Assembly: GCA_937959265.1 (NCBI GenBank)
Contig: CALGMA010000009.1
Span: 62,001-126,000, forward strand
DNA length: 64,000 nucleotides
Direction of reading: 5' to 3'
Source of the DNA: an uncultured Anaerolineae bacterium
GTDB lineage: Bacteria; Chloroflexota; Anaerolineae; J036; Brachytrichaceae
Shown here: positions 4,837 through 12,194 of the stretch, piece by piece
Layout of the letters: the number at the start of each line of letters is the position of its first letter
Numbering within the stretch: position 1 is the stretch's first letter
Notes under the pieces: generated by a model
Database searches by the model: none
Seen by the model: only the letters and a program-made list of their open reading frames with translations
Told to the model about the DNA's origin: nothing
Made by a program: the position numbers and the translations under genes

Positions 4837-5616
4837 CCGGACGAGGTTGCCGCCCAGCACGCGGGCGATATCCGCCTCGAGCCAGTCTGACAGGTGTGCG
4901 CGCACCCACGCCGGCGAGCCGCCGCCCCAGACCAGGTGGGTCGGCCCGAAGGCATCAGCTACCTGACGGATGAAGCGTTGCACGCTGAGATACAGTGGCG
5001 CATCGCCGACGATGTGATCGAGGCCGGAAAGCTTCATGACCACGTTGGGAAAGTCGGCCAAGGCCAGCACATCGGCATATTCGGGGATCGTTCCATAGGC
5101 CGGCTCGCCGAGATGGTCAATCAGCACGGGCGTTTCAGGGAAAGCCGCGATTAAGTCGCGCGTTTGCGCCGCGTAGTTCGGGCCGATGTGCAGCTCGACG
5201 ATCAAGCCAAGCTCCGCCGCCTTTGCCCATAGCGCTTTCACGCCCACGTCGCCGAAGCTGTCGAGATATATCTCCTTGCCGCGGTGGGCGTGAAAGCGCG
5301 TCGCCACGATGCGCGGCTCGCGCTTCACCAACGCCTCCAGCTTTCGCGGCGCATCTTCATCCTTCGGATAGAACAGCGAGGACGCACGCAGGCGATCCGG
5401 CTCGCGCGCCAGCGCATCGAGCACGAGCGCGTGGTCATCGCCATACGGCTCCGGCTGCACGATCACCGCGCGGTCAATGCCCTCGTCGCGCATGCGTTGC
5501 AGATAGGCAGCCAGCGGGTTGTCGTGCGTCTCGTGCGGGATGTAGGTAGCGCGTGGATGCCAGGGATAGCGTGCTGTGTCACTGCTGAAGAGGTGATGAT
5601 TCCACTCGACGATCAC
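4810..5616 (-). CDS. Amidohydrolase_2 family protein with altered metal and catalytic residues
   Basis: This 268-residue TIM-barrel protein resembles the lactonase branch of Amidohydrolase_2. It has VIDHLGEP-like (VLIDHLGEPAYG), ELHIG, FPNVVMKLSGL and a C-terminal GGNLVRLLRW. The N-terminal metal motif, normally an HxH as in AHHHLW, reads WNHHLF, so the first His is Asn. The usual catalytic GSDWP-type Asp near the C-terminus reads WGGGSPAW with no Asp. It may be metal-free or a non-catalytic relative. The GTG start overlaps the TGA of the upstream permease gene as GTGA, implying translational coupling, and ties it to the sugar ABC operon. Confidence 0.75.
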   Translation of the reverse strand: MIVEWNHHLFSSDTARYPWHPRATYIPHETHDNPLAAYLQRMRDEGIDRAVIVQPEPYGDDHALVLDALAREPDRLRASSLFYPKDEDAPRKLEALVKREPRIVATRFHAHRGKEIYLDSFGDVGVKALWAKAAELGLIVELHIGPNYAAQTRDLIAAFPETPVLIDHLGEPAYGTIPEYADVLALADFPNVVMKLSGLDHIVGDAPLYLSVQRFIRQVADAFGPTHLVWGGGSPAWVRAHLSDWLEADIARVLGGNLVRLLRWPEAL

Positions 5617-6446
5617 GTCTTCACTGCTCCTGCTGCCAGGCCCTGCACCACGAAGCGTTGCGAGAGGTAATACAGCGTCATCACCGGCACAGCGGCCACC
5701 ACTGCGCCGGCCATGATCAGCCCCCAACGGAACACGTCGCCGGTGATGAGGTATTGCAACGCTACTGGCACGGTGCGAATCTCCGGCGACGTTGTGAAAA
5801 TCAGCGCTAACAACAGTTCGTTCCATGCACCGGTGAACGTGAACACGCTAACCGCAACCAGGCCGGGCGCAGCCACCGGCAGCAAGATACGAAAGAGTGC
5901 CTGAAGGCGCGTCGCGCCGTCCACCATGGCCTGCTCCTCCAGGTCCACCGGCACGTTGCGGAAGAACCCCATCAGCAGCCAGGTGCTGAGCGGTGCGGCG
6001 AACGTGAGGTAGGTGAAGACCAGGCCATGCAACGTATTCCCCATTTGTAAGCGGTTGATAATGACTGCCAGCGGGATGAACAGCAGCGACGCCGGCGTGA
6101 GGTACGAGAACAAGATCAGCCGGCCGATCCACGTGCGACCGCGATAGCGCAGCCGCACCAGGCTGTAGGCGGCCAAGCAACTGATGAACACAGAGATAAC
6201 CGTGGCGCTGCTGGCCACAATGAGGCTGTTGCGCATGTTCACGGCGAAGCCGCGCCGACCCAGCAACTCGACGTAGTTCATCAGCGTGGGATTCGGCAAC
6301 AAGAGCGACGGCATGCGATAGATGTCGCGATTCGTCTTCAGCGACACCGTGAGCATGTAATAAATCGGAAAGAGGATGAGGATGGCCAGCAAGACCAGAC
6401 ATGCGTAGGCCAACACTTTTTGCGAGGGGCTGAGTTTGTGCAGCAT
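5613..6446 (-). CDS. Sugar ABC transporter permease (MalG/UgpE type)
   Basis: This 277-residue integral membrane protein has six predicted segments. The cytoplasmic EAA loop reads EEQAMVDGATRLQALFRILL, the hallmark through which CUT1 carbohydrate permeases contact their ATPase. The ATG at 6446 was chosen because upstream residues in the same frame resemble the out-of-frame MalF gene. It follows the MalF-type permease by 20 bases and overlaps the amidohydrolase start by four bases. No ATPase gene is present in the operon, as is common for CUT1 systems that share a MsmK/UgpC-like ATPase encoded elsewhere (family knowledge). Confidence 0.9.
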   Translation of the reverse strand: MLHKLSPSQKVLAYACLVLLAILILFPIYYMLTVSLKTNRDIYRMPSLLLPNPTLMNYVELLGRRGFAVNMRNSLIVASSATVISVFISCLAAYSLVRLRYRGRTWIGRLILFSYLTPASLLFIPLAVIINRLQMGNTLHGLVFTYLTFAAPLSTWLLMGFFRNVPVDLEEQAMVDGATRLQALFRILLPVAAPGLVAVSVFTFTGAWNELLLALIFTTSPEIRTVPVALQYLITGDVFRWGLIMAGAVVAAVPVMTLYYLSQRFVVQGLAAGAVKT

Positions 6447-9046: not shown

Positions 9047-9075
9047 TTGACAACGCAGTGTAAAGTCGTTAGTAT
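9047..9075 (+). promoter_or_regulatory. Promoter of the sulfur operon leader
   Basis: A consensus TTGACA (9047-9052), a 17-base spacer and TAGTAT (9070-9075) place the transcription start about 25 bases before the SAM riboswitch. Confidence 0.75.
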
Positions 9076-9106
9076 CTGCTACGACAAATTCAAGTTTGTA
9101 AGCACA

Positions 9107-9204
9107 CTCTTATCCAGAGCAGCGGAGGGACCGGCCCGATGAAGCTGCGGCAACCTGAATCGAACAAGGTGCCAATTCCGGCAGCGAAAACTGGAAGATG
9201 AGAG
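9107..9204 (+). ncRNA. SAM-I riboswitch (S-box)
   Basis: The sequence carries the S-box signature. P1 strands CTCTTATC (9107-9114) and GATGAGAG (9197-9204) enclose GAGGGACCGGCCCGATGAAG, CGGCAACC and AAGGTGCCAATTCC. These are the conserved elements of the SAM-binding core, including the kink-turn. A terminator follows 24 bases later. It should switch off the downstream sulfurtransferase locus when S-adenosylmethionine is abundant (family knowledge). Confidence 0.93.
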
Positions 9205-9228
9205 CGCGCTAACGCATCAAGCCGTTAT

Positions 9229-9270
9229 CGCCCTCTTGCACAGTTTCGCAAGAGGGCGCTTCGCTTTTCG
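9229..9270 (+). terminator. Riboswitch-controlled intrinsic terminator
   Basis: An 11-bp perfect stem, CGCCCTCTTGC (9229-9239) with GCAAGAGGGCG (9248-9258), is followed by CTTCGCTTTT. The left arm (CGCCCTCTT) can instead pair with the GAGAGCG region at the 3' side of riboswitch P1, the expected antiterminator. Confidence 0.85.
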
Positions 9271-9328
9271 GAGTGTTCTTGCGAACCCAACGTCAACGCT
9301 GAAAGTGCATTCAGTCAGGAGTTGCAGC

Positions 9329-9385
9329 ATGAACACGATCACCGGTAGCGTGATCCCCACAGTCAGACTGTGCTTGTGTATGTAG
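9329..9385 (+). CDS. Cys-containing leader peptide ending RLCLCM
   Basis: This 18-codon frame encodes MNTITGSVIPTVRLCLCM. AGGAG (9317-9321) is 7 bases before the ATG, one of the best ribosome binding sites in the window. The C-terminal Arg-Leu-Cys-Leu-Cys run resembles known cysteine-sensing leader peptides upstream of sulfur genes in actinobacteria (family resemblance from memory, not searched). A hairpin begins at its stop codon. Slow translation of the two Cys codons would be the signal. It lies between the riboswitch terminator and the sulfurtransferase gene. Confidence 0.6.
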   Translation: MNTITGSVIPTVRLCLCM

Positions 9386-9420
9386 CGGGCCGGCCGCTTC
9401 GACGCGGCATGTGACCCGCT
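9384..9420 (+). promoter_or_regulatory. Hairpin at the leader-peptide stop, candidate attenuator
   Basis: AGCGGG (9384-9389) pairs with CCCGCT (9415-9420), enclosing GCCGC (9393-9397) with GCGGC (9404-9408). It starts inside the leader stop codon, so a ribosome finishing or stalling on the Cys codons would change its folding. No T-run follows, so the mechanism might be Rho-dependent or translational. Confidence 0.4.
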
Positions 9421-9567
9421 GCCTCCGTTTGCATCACCATCGTCAGCCTCGTATGTGGCCGGTCAACGCTTGTGTGGGCCGGTCTTGTTCTGCGCACCGC
9501 AATGCCAGGTCATGAAAGTTATGCGACGTCAACTGAATCAATCCGGTTTAAGGAGTAAAGTCAAGCT

Positions 9568-10416
9568 ATGAGCACATTTGCATATGCCCATCCCGAAGCA
9601 TTGGTCAGCACCGACTGGCTGGCCGAACATCTAGACGACCCAAACATACGCATCGTGGAATCGAACGAAGATCCGCTGCTGTATGACACCGGTCATATCC
9701 CCGGCGCGATCAAGATTGACTGGACCACCGACCTGAATGATCCGGTCAAGCGCGACTACCTTGACTCGGTGCACTTTGCGGAGCTGCTTAGCAGTAAGGG
9801 CATCGCCAACGACTCGTTCGTCGTGTTCTACGGCGACAAGAACAACTGGTGGGCGACCTATGCCTTCTGGGTATTCCAATTGTTCGGGCACACAAAAGCC
9901 GCCATTCTGAACGGCGGGCGCAAAAAGTGGATTGACGAAGGTCGCCCGCTGACGCGTGATGTGCCTTCGTATCCGCGCACCGAATACAAAGCGCCGCCGC
10001 GTGATGACAAGACCATCCGTGCCTTCCGCGACGAGGTGTTGAAGCACGTGCAGAGCAGCGGCGCGCTGGTGGACGTGCGCAGCCCGGCCGAGTACACCGG
10101 CGAACGGCTGCACATGCCTGAGTATCCGAACGAAGGTGCGCTGCGCGGCGGCCACATTCCCGGCGCAAAGAACATTCCCTGGGCGCAGGCTGTGAGGGAA
10201 GACGGCACGTTCAAACCGCGCGAGGAACTCGAAGCGCTCTACAGCAGTAAGGGTATCACGCCAGATAAGGACATCATCGCCTACTGCCGCATCGGTGAGC
10301 GCAGCAGCCACACGTGGTTCGTGCTCACCTATCTGCTCGGCTACCCGCATGTGAAGAACTATGACGGAAGCTGGACCGAGTGGGGCAACAGCGTCGGCTT
10401 GCCGATCGAGAAATGA
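9568..10416 (+). CDS. Thiosulfate/3-mercaptopyruvate sulfurtransferase (tandem rhodanese)
   Basis: The 282-residue protein has two rhodanese domains. The N-terminal one (about 10-130) is inactive-like, with [16 protein letters not shown] where the active loop would be. The C-terminal one (about 160-280) carries the persulfide-forming Cys in [20 protein letters not shown]. CRxGERS is the loop of the actinobacterial CysA/SseA-like thiosulfate sulfurtransferases. It transfers sulfane sulfur from thiosulfate or mercaptopyruvate to an acceptor in the cytoplasm. The SAM riboswitch and Cys leader upstream place it under sulfur amino-acid control. AAGGAG about 12 bases upstream supports the start. 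Confidence 0.9.
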
Positions 10417-10474: not shown

Positions 10475-10930
10475 ATGAGCCAACCTTCATCTTCCCCCTG
10501 CGCCGACGGCGTCCCGTTGCCCATTGTCAGGCTGAACCGGATCGTGTTAGCTGCCGGTGTGATCGTCGCCTTGGCCTTGAACCAGCCGCTGATCACGACT
10601 GCCCTCTTCCTGCTGATCCTGCCCGCAGCGTTGTTTGGCCGGCGCGCTAGCCCAATCTACCACGTAGGCCGCCGCATCTTCGCCAAGCAAATCCCCGCTG
10701 CTCCGGCCGAGGACTTTCGTGTCCAACGCTTCAACAATCTCATCGCCGCGACGTTGCTTGGCACGGGACAGGTCGCGTTCGTGCTCGGCGTGCCGGTTGC
10801 TGGCTGGGCGTTGTCCTTAGCTGTCGCGATCGCTGCAACGGTGGCGCTGCTCGGCTTCTGTTTGGGTTGCTTCTTGTACTACCAGTTCCGACTGCAGCGC
10901 CATCGCTTCTTCGCCGCAATTGAGCCGTGA
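10475..10930 (+). CDS. DUF4395 membrane protein
   Basis: This 151-residue integral membrane protein has hydrophobic segments at about 24-55 and 95-140. The opening VPLPIVRLNRIVLAAGV followed by an R-R-A-S-P-I-Y-H cluster fits the DUF4395 family, often encoded beside rhodanese or thioredoxin genes (family knowledge). The function is unknown; a role in sulfur-compound traffic or membrane redox is conceivable. It follows the sulfurtransferase by 58 bases and precedes a perfect palindrome, so it is likely the last gene of the riboswitch-controlled unit. No clear ribosome binding site is seen. Confidence 0.8.
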   Translation: MSQPSSSPCADGVPLPIVRLNRIVLAAGVIVALALNQPLITTALFLLILPAALFGRRASPIYHVGRRIFAKQIPAAPAEDFRVQRFNNLIAATLLGTGQVAFVLGVPVAGWALSLAVAIAATVALLGFCLGCFLYYQFRLQRHRFFAAIEP

Positions 10931-10936
10931 ATCCTA

Positions 10937-10967
10937 GACCCTAAAGGTCTCAAAGACCTTTAGGGTC
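10937..10967 (+). terminator. Perfect 14-bp palindrome, likely terminator
   Basis: GACCCTAAAGGTCT (10937-10950) and AGACCTTTAGGGTC (10954-10967) flank a 3-base loop and are followed by TTTCGTTCT. It separates the DUF4395 gene from the PLP enzyme. The sequence also looks like a dispersed palindromic repeat. Confidence 0.7.
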
Positions 10968-10979
10968 TTTCGTTCTCGT

Positions 10980-12194
10980 ATGTGTAGTTATCGCTTCGAC
11001 ACCCGGCTGGTGCATACCGGTGAGCGGTCGGTCAACCGAGCCGACTGGCACAACGCAACGCCTACCAGCGCGCCCATTCATGGCAGCACGACCTTCCTGT
11101 ATCCCACGGCGCAGGCGCTGGACGCAGCATTTGCCGCAGGTGGCGACCAGGTGGTCTACACCCGCTGGGGCAATCCTACCATTCAGGCGCTTGAGGCACT
11201 CATGGCCGATTTGGAGGAAGGGCGCGGCGCCGTGGCCTGCAGCTCCGGCATGTCGGCGCTGTATCTTGCATTGCTGGCTGCCGGCACGCCGCGCGGTGCG
11301 ACCGAACCGCATCCGCGCCACATCCTCGCCTCACGCGATCTCTACGGTGCGACCGAGACGCTGTTGCGCGACTTCTTTGCCGCGCAGTCTGTCGCGGTGA
11401 GCTATTGCGACATGAGCGACCTGGCTGAGGTAAAGGCGGCGATCAGCACACATGCGCCGGACGTGGTGTTGCTCGAATCGCTGTCCAACCCGCTGCTCAA
11501 ATGGGCTGATGTGGAAGCAATTGTGCACTACGCTCATCAGGCTGATGCACGCGTGATTGTGGACGCTACCCTGGCGACACCGGTGTTACATCGGCCGCTG
11601 GTACAAGGCGCAGACTTCGTAGTGCACAGCGCGACGAAGTACCTCGGCGGCCACGCCGATGCGACCGGTGGGATCCTCGTCGCACGCACCGGCCTGTTGC
11701 TCGACACAGCGCGGCGCTATGCCATCCAGCTCGGAATGATCCTGGGTCCGTTCGAAGCGCGATTGATCATGCGCGGTATCCACACGCTGGGGCTGCGGGT
11801 GCGCCGGCAGTCCGAGAGCGCGCTGATCATCGCCCAAGCGTTGCAAAAACATCCGCGCATCCGACGCGTGATCTACCCAGGCTTATCGGAGCATCCACAC
11901 CACAGCCTGATGTCGTTGCAGACATGCGGCCTGTTCGGCGGCCTGATCTCGTTCGAGCTGGCCAACGCCACGCGCGAGGCCGCCTTCGCCTTCATGAACC
12001 GGCTGAAGCTGATCCTGCCTGCGACCAGCTTGGGCGACATCTATTCGTTGATCACATACCCGCCAATTTCATCGCATCGCGAACTGAACGAGGCCCAGCG
12101 CGCCGAGCATGGCATCGGCGATGGCCTATTGCGGTTGTCGGTCGGCATCGAGGACCCTCAGGATATCCTGACCGACCTCGAGAGCGCACTGTAG
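10980..12194 (+). CDS. Cys/Met-metabolism PLP enzyme (cystathionine gamma-synthase/lyase family)
   Basis: This 404-residue protein belongs to the gamma-family of PLP enzymes. SATKYLGGHADATGG (about 220) carries the Schiff-base Lys, YTRWGNPTIQALE (about 60) binds the PLP phosphate of the neighbouring subunit, and the C-terminal half has LRLSVGIEDPQDILTDL. Members include cystathionine gamma-synthase, cystathionine gamma-lyase, O-acetylhomoserine sulfhydrylase and methionine gamma-lyase. The exact reaction is not decidable here. The neighbouring riboswitch locus supports a role in methionine or cysteine turnover. It starts 12 bases after the palindrome with no Shine-Dalgarno sequence, so it may need its own promoter or read-through. 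Confidence 0.88.
   Translation: MCSYRFDTRLVHTGERSVNRADWHNATPTSAPIHGSTTFLYPTAQALDAAFAAGGDQVVYTRWGNPTIQALEALMADLEEGRGAVACSSGMSALYLALLAAGTPRGATEPHPRHILASRDLYGATETLLRDFFAAQSVAVSYCDMSDLAEVKAAISTHAPDVVLLESLSNPLLKWADVEAIVHYAHQADARVIVDATLATPVLHRPLVQGADFVVHSATKYLGGHADATGGILVARTGLLLDTARRYAIQLGMILGPFEARLIMRGIHTLGLRVRRQSESALIIAQALQKHPRIRRVIYPGLSEHPHHSLMSLQTCGLFGGLISFELANATREAAFAFMNRLKLILPATSLGDIYSLITYPPISSHRELNEAQRAEHGIGDGLLRLSVGIEDPQDILTDLESAL

Follow-up and report, generated by a model that had tools for sequence, protein, structure and literature searches.

What governs the expression of a rhodanese gene whose leader appears to carry a SAM-I riboswitch and, downstream of it, a short reading frame with two Cys codons, and could these elements sense SAM and charged tRNA-Cys in series? 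The gene lies in a window of 64,000 nucleotides, the whole stretch of DNA analysed here, which belongs to the 4.0 Mb draft genome (52 contigs; hereafter G000) of an uncultured Anaerolineae bacterium. The original prediction listed a consensus promoter, a complete SAM-I riboswitch with its terminator, an 18-codon frame beginning 70 bases further on with a ribosome binding site and two late Cys codons, and a hairpin starting at the stop codon of that frame. All of these elements were located, and the locus is organized as follows, where ‘genus leaders’ are the six leaders described further below.

9047 to 9075, plus strand: promoter of the sigma-70 type, TTGACA-17-TAGTAT, present in each of the six genus leaders
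9107 to 9204, plus strand: SAM-I riboswitch aptamer (RF00162), the first sensor, scoring 85.2 bits (gathering score 44.4)
9200 to 9238, plus strand: predicted antiterminator, formed in the absence of SAM between the P1 3' strand plus spacer and the 5' terminator arm
9229 to 9268, plus strand: intrinsic terminator of the riboswitch, with stem 9229-9258 (CGCCCTCTTGC..GCAAGAGGGCG) and then a T-rich tail, CTTCGCTTTT
9317 to 9321, plus strand: Shine-Dalgarno sequence AGGAG of the leader frame, GGAG being present in all six genus leaders
9329 to 9385, plus strand: Cys leader frame MNTITGSVIPTVRLCLCM, 18 sense codons and TAG, the putative second sensor
9333 to 9379, plus strand: hairpin HP0, formed in the six genus leaders between the beginning of the frame (ACACGAUCAC) and the region of its Cys codons (GUGCUUGUGU)
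9384 to 9420, plus strand: hairpin HP1, AGCGGG..CCCGCU, whose first base is the A of the TAG stop codon
9421 to 9465, plus strand: C-rich, G-poor stretch (C 0.36, G 0.24), putatively rut-like
9457 to 9484, plus strand: GC-rich hairpin HP2, GGCCGGUC..GGCCGGUC, then UUGUUCUG, present in all but one of the six genus leaders
9568 to 10416, plus strand: two-domain rhodanese of the thiosulfate sulfurtransferase type, the first gene of the operon, with its own Shine-Dalgarno sequence AAGGAG at 9550
10475 to 10930, plus strand: DUF4395 protein, the second gene
10980 to 12194, plus strand: PLP enzyme of Cys/Met metabolism, 3' of a hairpin with tail at 10936-10968

The leader stands under a single consensus promoter on the plus strand, with no second plus-strand site of the sigma-70 type found between 8500 and 11500, and the SAM-I aptamer has a separate expression platform of its own. 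Exactly 70 bases separate the end of the terminator from the ATG of the frame, the Cys codons are codons 15 (9371-9373) and 17 (9377-9379), and 182 bases lie between the stop codon and the ATG of the rhodanese gene. The best matches of the rhodanese among solved structures are 1uar (a rhodanese), 8k55 (a sulfur transferase) and 3hzu (the thiosulfate sulfurtransferase SseA). The hairpin between the DUF4395 and PLP enzyme genes consists of 15 pairs followed by a T-rich tail, and the PLP enzyme gene may therefore form a separate unit outside the leader transcript. Taken as a whole, the 301-base leader is no more stable than its shuffles (z 0.92); conservation resides in local hairpins rather than in the stability of the entire leader.

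The match to RF00162 is full length (positions 1-108). In the window, the expression platform consists of a terminator with five T residues in nine and an antiterminator of -14.5 kcal/mol, and the latter competes with P1. The same antiterminator pairing is predicted in 10 of the 11 tandem leaders recognized in this study, together with a terminator with a T-rich tail 3' of the aptamer. Judged from these predicted structures, the SAM stage is conventional, and control by SAM-I is established for this riboswitch family. When the riboswitch occurs without a Cys frame (48 places, 14 of which were inspected), it resides upstream of metY-, metK- and metX-like genes, which encode Cys/Met PLP enzymes, S-adenosylmethionine synthetases and a MetX-type alpha/beta hydrolase (one of each was confirmed with Pfam). 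Among 23 loci scanned in other relatives, outside the genus of the window, no SAM-I riboswitch was found upstream of a rhodanese gene.

We then consider the frame itself. Our sample of the genus comprises nine genomes, all of which carry SAM-I riboswitches, and six of them (the window included) have a riboswitch at the locus studied here. The six frames are MNTITGSVIPTVRLCLCM, MDTITHRIPLATMRCLCI, MDTTAHATSLKAQRCLCT, MDTITHAVIPPTALCLCI, MDTITHTVILATALCLCI and MDTITHAVILTTASCLCI. Loss of the frame or of its Cys codons in relatives that retain the riboswitch had been named in advance as evidence against a cysteine sensor; both are kept at all six loci. Each frame has 18 codons and terminates x-C-L-C-x-stop, and the Shine-Dalgarno sequence, ATG, both Cys codons, stop codon and HP1 are constant. 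The middle of the peptide is variable, with pairwise differences spread evenly across the three codon positions (80, 77 and 83), as would be expected if the peptide sequence itself is unimportant. Eleven bases, GTGCTTGTGTA, are identical in all six leaders. Two of the nine genus members (G007 and G008) have the rhodanese gene without the leader, which counts against the best explanation given below. The leader of G002 cannot be assessed because the contig holding its transporter and rhodanese genes starts inside the transporter.

The placement of the leader before a sulfurtransferase, as originally described, holds for three of the six genomes (G000, G005 and G003), where it resides directly 5' of the rhodanese gene. 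This description proved too narrow for the other three (G006, G004 and G001), in which the leader precedes the binding-protein gene of an ABC transporter. In G006 this protein is NMT1/THI5-like, and the transporter genes are followed by genes for rhodanese, DUF4395 and the PLP enzyme, and the contigs of G004 and G001 end before any rhodanese gene could be reached. The leader therefore serves an operon for sulfur acquisition and not a single gene.

To place this arrangement in the wider family, we recorded 59 SAM-I places in 28 family genomes (27 of which have SAM-I) and evaluated the downstream 400 bases of each, three places being shorter, for frames of 6-60 codons ending C-x-C-x-stop. Such a frame was found at 12 of the 59 places. 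In 11 of them it lies 141-166 bases past the aptamer and is followed by a TAGCGGG hairpin; the twelfth (LSCRCY) looks like a chance occurrence and was rejected. When Cys was replaced by each other residue in turn, between zero and six of the 59 places scored, and Cys on the reverse strand gave one. Six of the 11 tandems belong to the genus of the window and five to a second genus of the same family. Four of the latter precede an OsmC-like gene and have aptamers of 83-86 bits, although for one (G027) the contig stops before the gene and its OsmC neighbour is assumed from the other three. The fifth, with a degenerate aptamer (53.3 bits), precedes a carbonic-anhydrase-like gene. A scan of 84,980 genomes, possibly without the record of the window itself, for an aptamer core and the motif at the same spacing returned eight sites, four per genus, each on a contig matching a member of one or the other of these genera. 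As a separate observation, the carbonic-anhydrase-like gene is preceded by SAM-I and a Cys leader in G026, and by a Cys leader alone in G014 (loci L137 and L175), a contrast which indicates that the riboswitch half is gained or lost independently.

The Cys leader also occurs in other families of the Anaerolineae without a riboswitch. A first search for the class, using a conserved stretch against 396 genomes, gave matches in 68 that were mostly noise like the control; of 20 regions examined, 15 were kept and five (L135 and L139-L142) were dropped because they lack such a frame. A second search for C-x-C-x-TAG together with the foot of the hairpin gave 36 rows, corresponding to 33 distinct sites, in 25 of the 396 genomes, against seven for a backwards control. 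These 33 strict sites and four leaders from the first search form the set of 37 used below. All 37 were chosen by TAGCGGG or a near match, and 33 also by CCCGC and a T in the codon between the Cys codons. Because these patterns were demanded by the searches, the HP1 foot and some of the preference for Leu, Ile or Val between the Cys codons exist by construction, whereas the inner stems, the reading frames and the gene context are independent of the search pattern.

The genes downstream belong mostly to cysteine and sulfur pathways, as expected for a cysteine attenuator. Among the 33 strict leaders, 21 (including the six of the window’s genus) precede cysteine, rhodanese, ThiS/ThiF or transporter-rhodanese genes; eight precede OsmC-, DUF4395- or carbonic-anhydrase-like genes, one has no recognized gene, and three are cut by contig ends. 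Stand-alone leaders are found before cysK-cysE-like pairs in six genomes (G083, G133, G023, G014, G024 and G020), before operons with ThiS, ThiF-rhodanese and cysteine-synthase-like genes in the family designated f38, before rhodanese and SufS-like genes in G200, and elsewhere before DUF4395 genes with a thioredoxin-like neighbour. Ten representatives and three families of these targets were confirmed with Pfam (PALP, hexapeptide transferase, ThiF plus rhodanese, ThiS, class-V aminotransferase, rhodanese, OsmC, carbonic anhydrase and DUF4395), and the remainder were named by eye from their translations. No NCBIfam model matches the five leader peptides tested (21-40 residues), and no Rfam family falls on the Cys part of the leaders. 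Each module thus occurs alone with its expected targets, and the tandem leaders join the two before sulfur-supplying genes.

Three further observations were made on these genomes. A second type of Cys leader without a riboswitch is present in G000 and two genus relatives (L091, at ~5480-5640, corresponding to G000:C15 near 29,580, and L092 and L093); its frame, which ends with PCLCCIGTACLCTARAGRLEADTRR and a stop, continues through the hairpin to a stop codon in the 3' arm, and it resides before an ABC-transporter operon of the Peripla_BP_6 type. In four stand-alone leaders of the second genus (L181, L183, L185 and L187) a TATCAT-like -10 box lies some ten bases 5' of the ATG, and their transcripts may therefore be leaderless. 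Finally, at eight loci in other genomes of the family (L015, L017-L020 and L022-L024) an FMN riboswitch lies within ~1 kb of the rhodanese orthologue, in some cases on the opposite strand.

Several observations on the 37 leaders bear on translation. An open ATG frame of at least four codons runs into the first Cys codon in 33 of them, compared with 5.8 expected from base-shuffled upstream sequences, and the two other reading frames reach the Cys position in zero and one leaders. The window’s frame has what an attenuator would be expected to have, namely a short length with predicted translatability and Cys codons placed late (15 and 17 of 18). Across the set, 32 leaders use TGC and five use TGT for the first Cys, the codon between encodes Leu in 30, Ile in four, Val in two and Ser in one (its middle T being imposed by the pattern for most), and every one of the 37 has TGT for the second Cys. 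This evidence suggests that the leader frame is translated. The invariant TGT, together with the eleven bases shared by the six genus leaders, suggests that the RNA itself is constrained in addition to its codons, and this weighs against the best explanation given below.

HP1 folds at the stop codon in all 37 leaders, with a mean z of -3.6 against dinucleotide shuffles; the z for the window came from a longer pairing, and its 37-base hairpin itself has an energy of -21.3 kcal/mol. The inner stems vary and yet stay paired, with nine distinct helices among 11 f38 leaders and ten among 13 leaders of the second genus. Among the leaders of the window’s own genus, one of the 14 pairs of HP1 is changed on both sides, as are two of the 12 pairs of HP2, where 88.9% of cells are paired. 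HP0 is weak evidence because there is little variation in its nine pairs, six of which never vary. Covariation in relatives had been proposed as a check, and its outcome was mixed: only 5 of 500 shuffles attain the observed total, but a control slid by +3 has four both-side changes against three in the structure itself, and with only six related sequences the test has low power.

How HP1 might affect expression is less evident from its structure, since no U-tract follows it. Three candidate mechanisms were examined. An antiterminator formed by the 3' arm of HP1 with downstream RNA was evaluated by duplex energy against 300 shuffles in 20 of the 21 family leaders (one contig was too short); z was within 1 of zero in 15 of the 20, the lowest being -2.08, and this pairing was rejected as a general feature. 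Ribosome-masked folds of the six genus leaders revealed no common switch. Base pairing between the Cys codons and the RNA 3' of HP1 reached p≤0.05 in eight of 13 leaders from f38 and a further family, f23, but in only one of the 21 family leaders, and it is therefore not the mechanism at the locus of the window. In the f38 and f23 leaders (L124-L131 and L177-L180) the Cys codons often pair just 3' of HP1, and a GCGATGAG-like stretch follows.

The base composition after HP1 offers another lead. In the 45 bases past HP1, C exceeds G in all 21 family leaders (mean 0.354 versus 0.212), compared with 12 of 21 in the next 45 bases; C also exceeds G in the 45 bases 5' of the Cys codons in 17 of 21. 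Rho is encoded in the genome (600.7 bits). Rho-dependent termination is favoured as the output of the Cys stage because of this C excess and the presence of Rho, although we make this assignment tentatively and it could well be mistaken. The C-rich stretch is out of reach of a stalled ribosome, which counts against this best explanation. Moreover, C exceeds G after HP1 in only two of 11 f38 leaders, and Rho therefore cannot be a rule for the entire class. Since many f38 leaders also pair their Cys codons with RNA after HP1, the output may differ by lineage.

Collectively, comparison of sequences indicates that the two-sensor leader is real and conserved, and we judge it probable that SAM and charged tRNA-Cys are sensed in series, with the leader acting as a NOR gate. 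The serial reading offered in the original prediction thus gains support from the retention of its parts at all six genus loci, the tandem in a second genus, and the occurrence of the Cys leader alone before operons for cysteine synthesis. One transcript, which would begin near 9082 as judged from the promoter, is proposed to pass two checkpoints ahead of sulfur-acquisition genes. At high SAM concentrations, the aptamer would close P1, the terminator at 9229-9258 would form, and transcription would end. If polymerase passes this terminator, a ribosome would translate the 18-codon frame. With ample charged tRNA-Cys, the ribosome would reach the stop codon and leave, permitting HP1 to form and downstream expression to be turned off, most likely by transcription termination within the 180 bases 5' of the gene, with Rho acting on the C-rich stretch as the favoured agent and HP2 as a possible weak terminator in the off state. 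If Cys-tRNA is scarce, the ribosome would stall at codon 15 or 17, cover the foot of HP1 and permit transcription to continue. The leading edge of a ribosome lies about 15 bases past its P site, and a ribosome awaiting Cys-tRNA at codon 17 would therefore mask approximately the first six bases of HP1. The genes would be on only when SAM and cysteine are both in short supply. Stalling, the polarity of the Cys stage and the role of Rho are the steps that we infer.

Other outputs of the Cys stage can explain part of these data. The frame could sense cysteine with a translational output or one based on RNA stability, such that HP1 and the RNA after it alter access by ribosomes or nucleases and no termination occurs. 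The absence of both a U-tract after HP1 and a recognizable antiterminator fits this arrangement, and passages of PMC13236596 describe mycobacterial cysteine genes under translation attenuation. However, the gene starts 182 bases beyond the stop codon of the frame, its Shine-Dalgarno sequence at 9550 is outside HP1, and C-rich, G-poor RNA directly follows HP1 in the family leaders, so that we give this output a modest chance of being correct. The Cys stage might instead end in HP2 (9457-9484 plus UUGUUCUG) as an intrinsic terminator, making the leader a classical attenuator. The retention of HP2 in five of six genus leaders, its two pairs changed on both sides and the five T residues in the eight bases 3' of it in the window are all compatible with such a role, but G004 lacks a T-rich tail, the tail of G005 is weak, HP2 is seen in the genus only, and no pairing that would undo it is consistently better than shuffles. 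Termination at HP2 as the main output is thus unlikely.

Two further explanations dispense with cysteine sensing. If the block of CLC codons, stop and hairpin were an RNA element recognized by a protein or ligand, with an incidental reading frame, then the strong conservation of the Cys-stretch nucleotides would be accounted for, as would their ability to pair with the start of the frame (HP0) or with sequence 3' of HP1, the latter in f38 and f23. This explanation is very improbable given the excess of open ATG frames over the shuffled expectation, the near absence of the other two frames, the exact length of 18 codons in the six genus frames, and downstream genes that mostly concern cysteine and sulfur. 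Likewise, the riboswitch might be the only working element and the Cys frame a decaying relic of a stand-alone leader, a proposal suggested by the lack of conservation in the middle of the peptide. A relic should hardly retain its Shine-Dalgarno sequence, start codon, length, Cys codons, stop codon and HP1 in six of six leaders despite a diverged middle, and we consider this scarcely credible. The proposal of two functional sensors in series, with Rho-dependent termination as the tentative output of the second, is retained.

If this proposal is correct, sulfur-supply genes are governed serially by an RNA that binds a metabolite and by a ribosome-read element that reports on tRNA charging. Genes that feed sulfur to both cysteine and methionine should respond to both end products, and the leader would achieve this dual response by using RNA and the ribosome alone. 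More broadly, we hold it somewhat more probable than its opposite that the Anaerolineae (Chloroflexota) possess an undescribed family of Cys leader-peptide attenuators, characterized by C-x-C-x-stop and a hairpin rooted at the stop codon, that is distributed across a cysteine regulon and in two genera lies behind SAM-I to form natural NOR gates on sulfur-supply genes. Because the same family provides controls with the riboswitch only at Met/SAM genes and with the Cys leader only at Cys genes, the logic of joining the two is directly testable. The motif also furnishes a sequence signature for cysteine attenuators in a phylum for which none is described in the literature searched.

Known systems combine several of these parts in other ways. 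In the open-licence literature, outside which most subscription papers fall, neither a SAM riboswitch combined with a cysteine leader peptide nor any cysteine leader from Chloroflexota was found. A 2020 study by Canestrari reportedly concerns cysteine leader peptides of Actinobacteria. The portion of PMC1262725 that defines the Actinobacterial leaders describes runs of Cys codons near the stop codon, no conserved hairpin, no obvious terminator and a proposed role for Rho. The leaders described here resemble these in having a short frame with late Cys codons before cysteine genes and no obvious terminator, but differ in their C-x-C-x-stop arrangement, the hairpin from the stop codon that is present in all 37 and the phylum; the leader of the window differs further in its Shine-Dalgarno sequence and upstream riboswitch. 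Another short frame, uORFC-8-2, precedes cysS in Rhodobacterales and, as characterized in passages of PMC8632094, has two adjacent Cys codons, usually 14 and 15, followed by stems and a terminator with a U-run. It shares with the leader of the window two Cys codons and downstream stems; in the latter, the Cys codons are one codon apart and HP1 lacks a U-run. Given that the defining features of both the Actinobacterial leaders and uORFC-8-2 are absent from it, the window leader is filed under neither. Separately, the reported methionine leader metL of Streptomyces lividans, located before metNIQ (PMC8079986), ends ..ARCMCRRMCAF and resembles a cysteine leader.

Other systems are closer in their logic. 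Tandems of SAM-I and a T-box for Met, in which the T-box binds uncharged tRNA-Met and a logic gate is formed on one operon, are described in portions of PMC9481103, where leader peptides, attenuators and uORFs are not mentioned. In these, too, SAM-I is coupled serially to an element that monitors tRNA charging, except that the putative second sensor here is a leader peptide frame for Cys rather than a T-box. Sections of PMC2940859 report that the ubiG operon of Clostridium acetobutylicum is controlled by an S-box acting on antisense RNAs and by a Cys T-box; as proposed for the window, SAM and tRNA-Cys signals converge on one sulfur operon, whereas ubiG uses an antisense S-box and a T-box. A SAM-I riboswitch of Xanthomonas senses uncharged initiator tRNA, which it binds, with one expression platform (PMC7270179), and thus also couples SAM-I to a tRNA signal, although unlike here there is no translation of a leader frame. 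Structured leaders are combined with translated frames in the B12 riboswitch of M. tuberculosis, which carries a translated uORF (PMC11260477), and in the mgtA leader, where structure, the MgtL peptide and Rho act together (portions of PMC11552253); the latter shares all three components with the mechanism proposed here and responds to different signals, Mg2+ and proline codons. Lastly, the first stage has the same aptamer, P1, terminator and antiterminator as the transcriptional S-box (SAM-I) riboswitches of RF00162. In these genomes, SAM-I alone precedes Met/SAM genes, whereas at the locus studied here it is followed by a second sensor.
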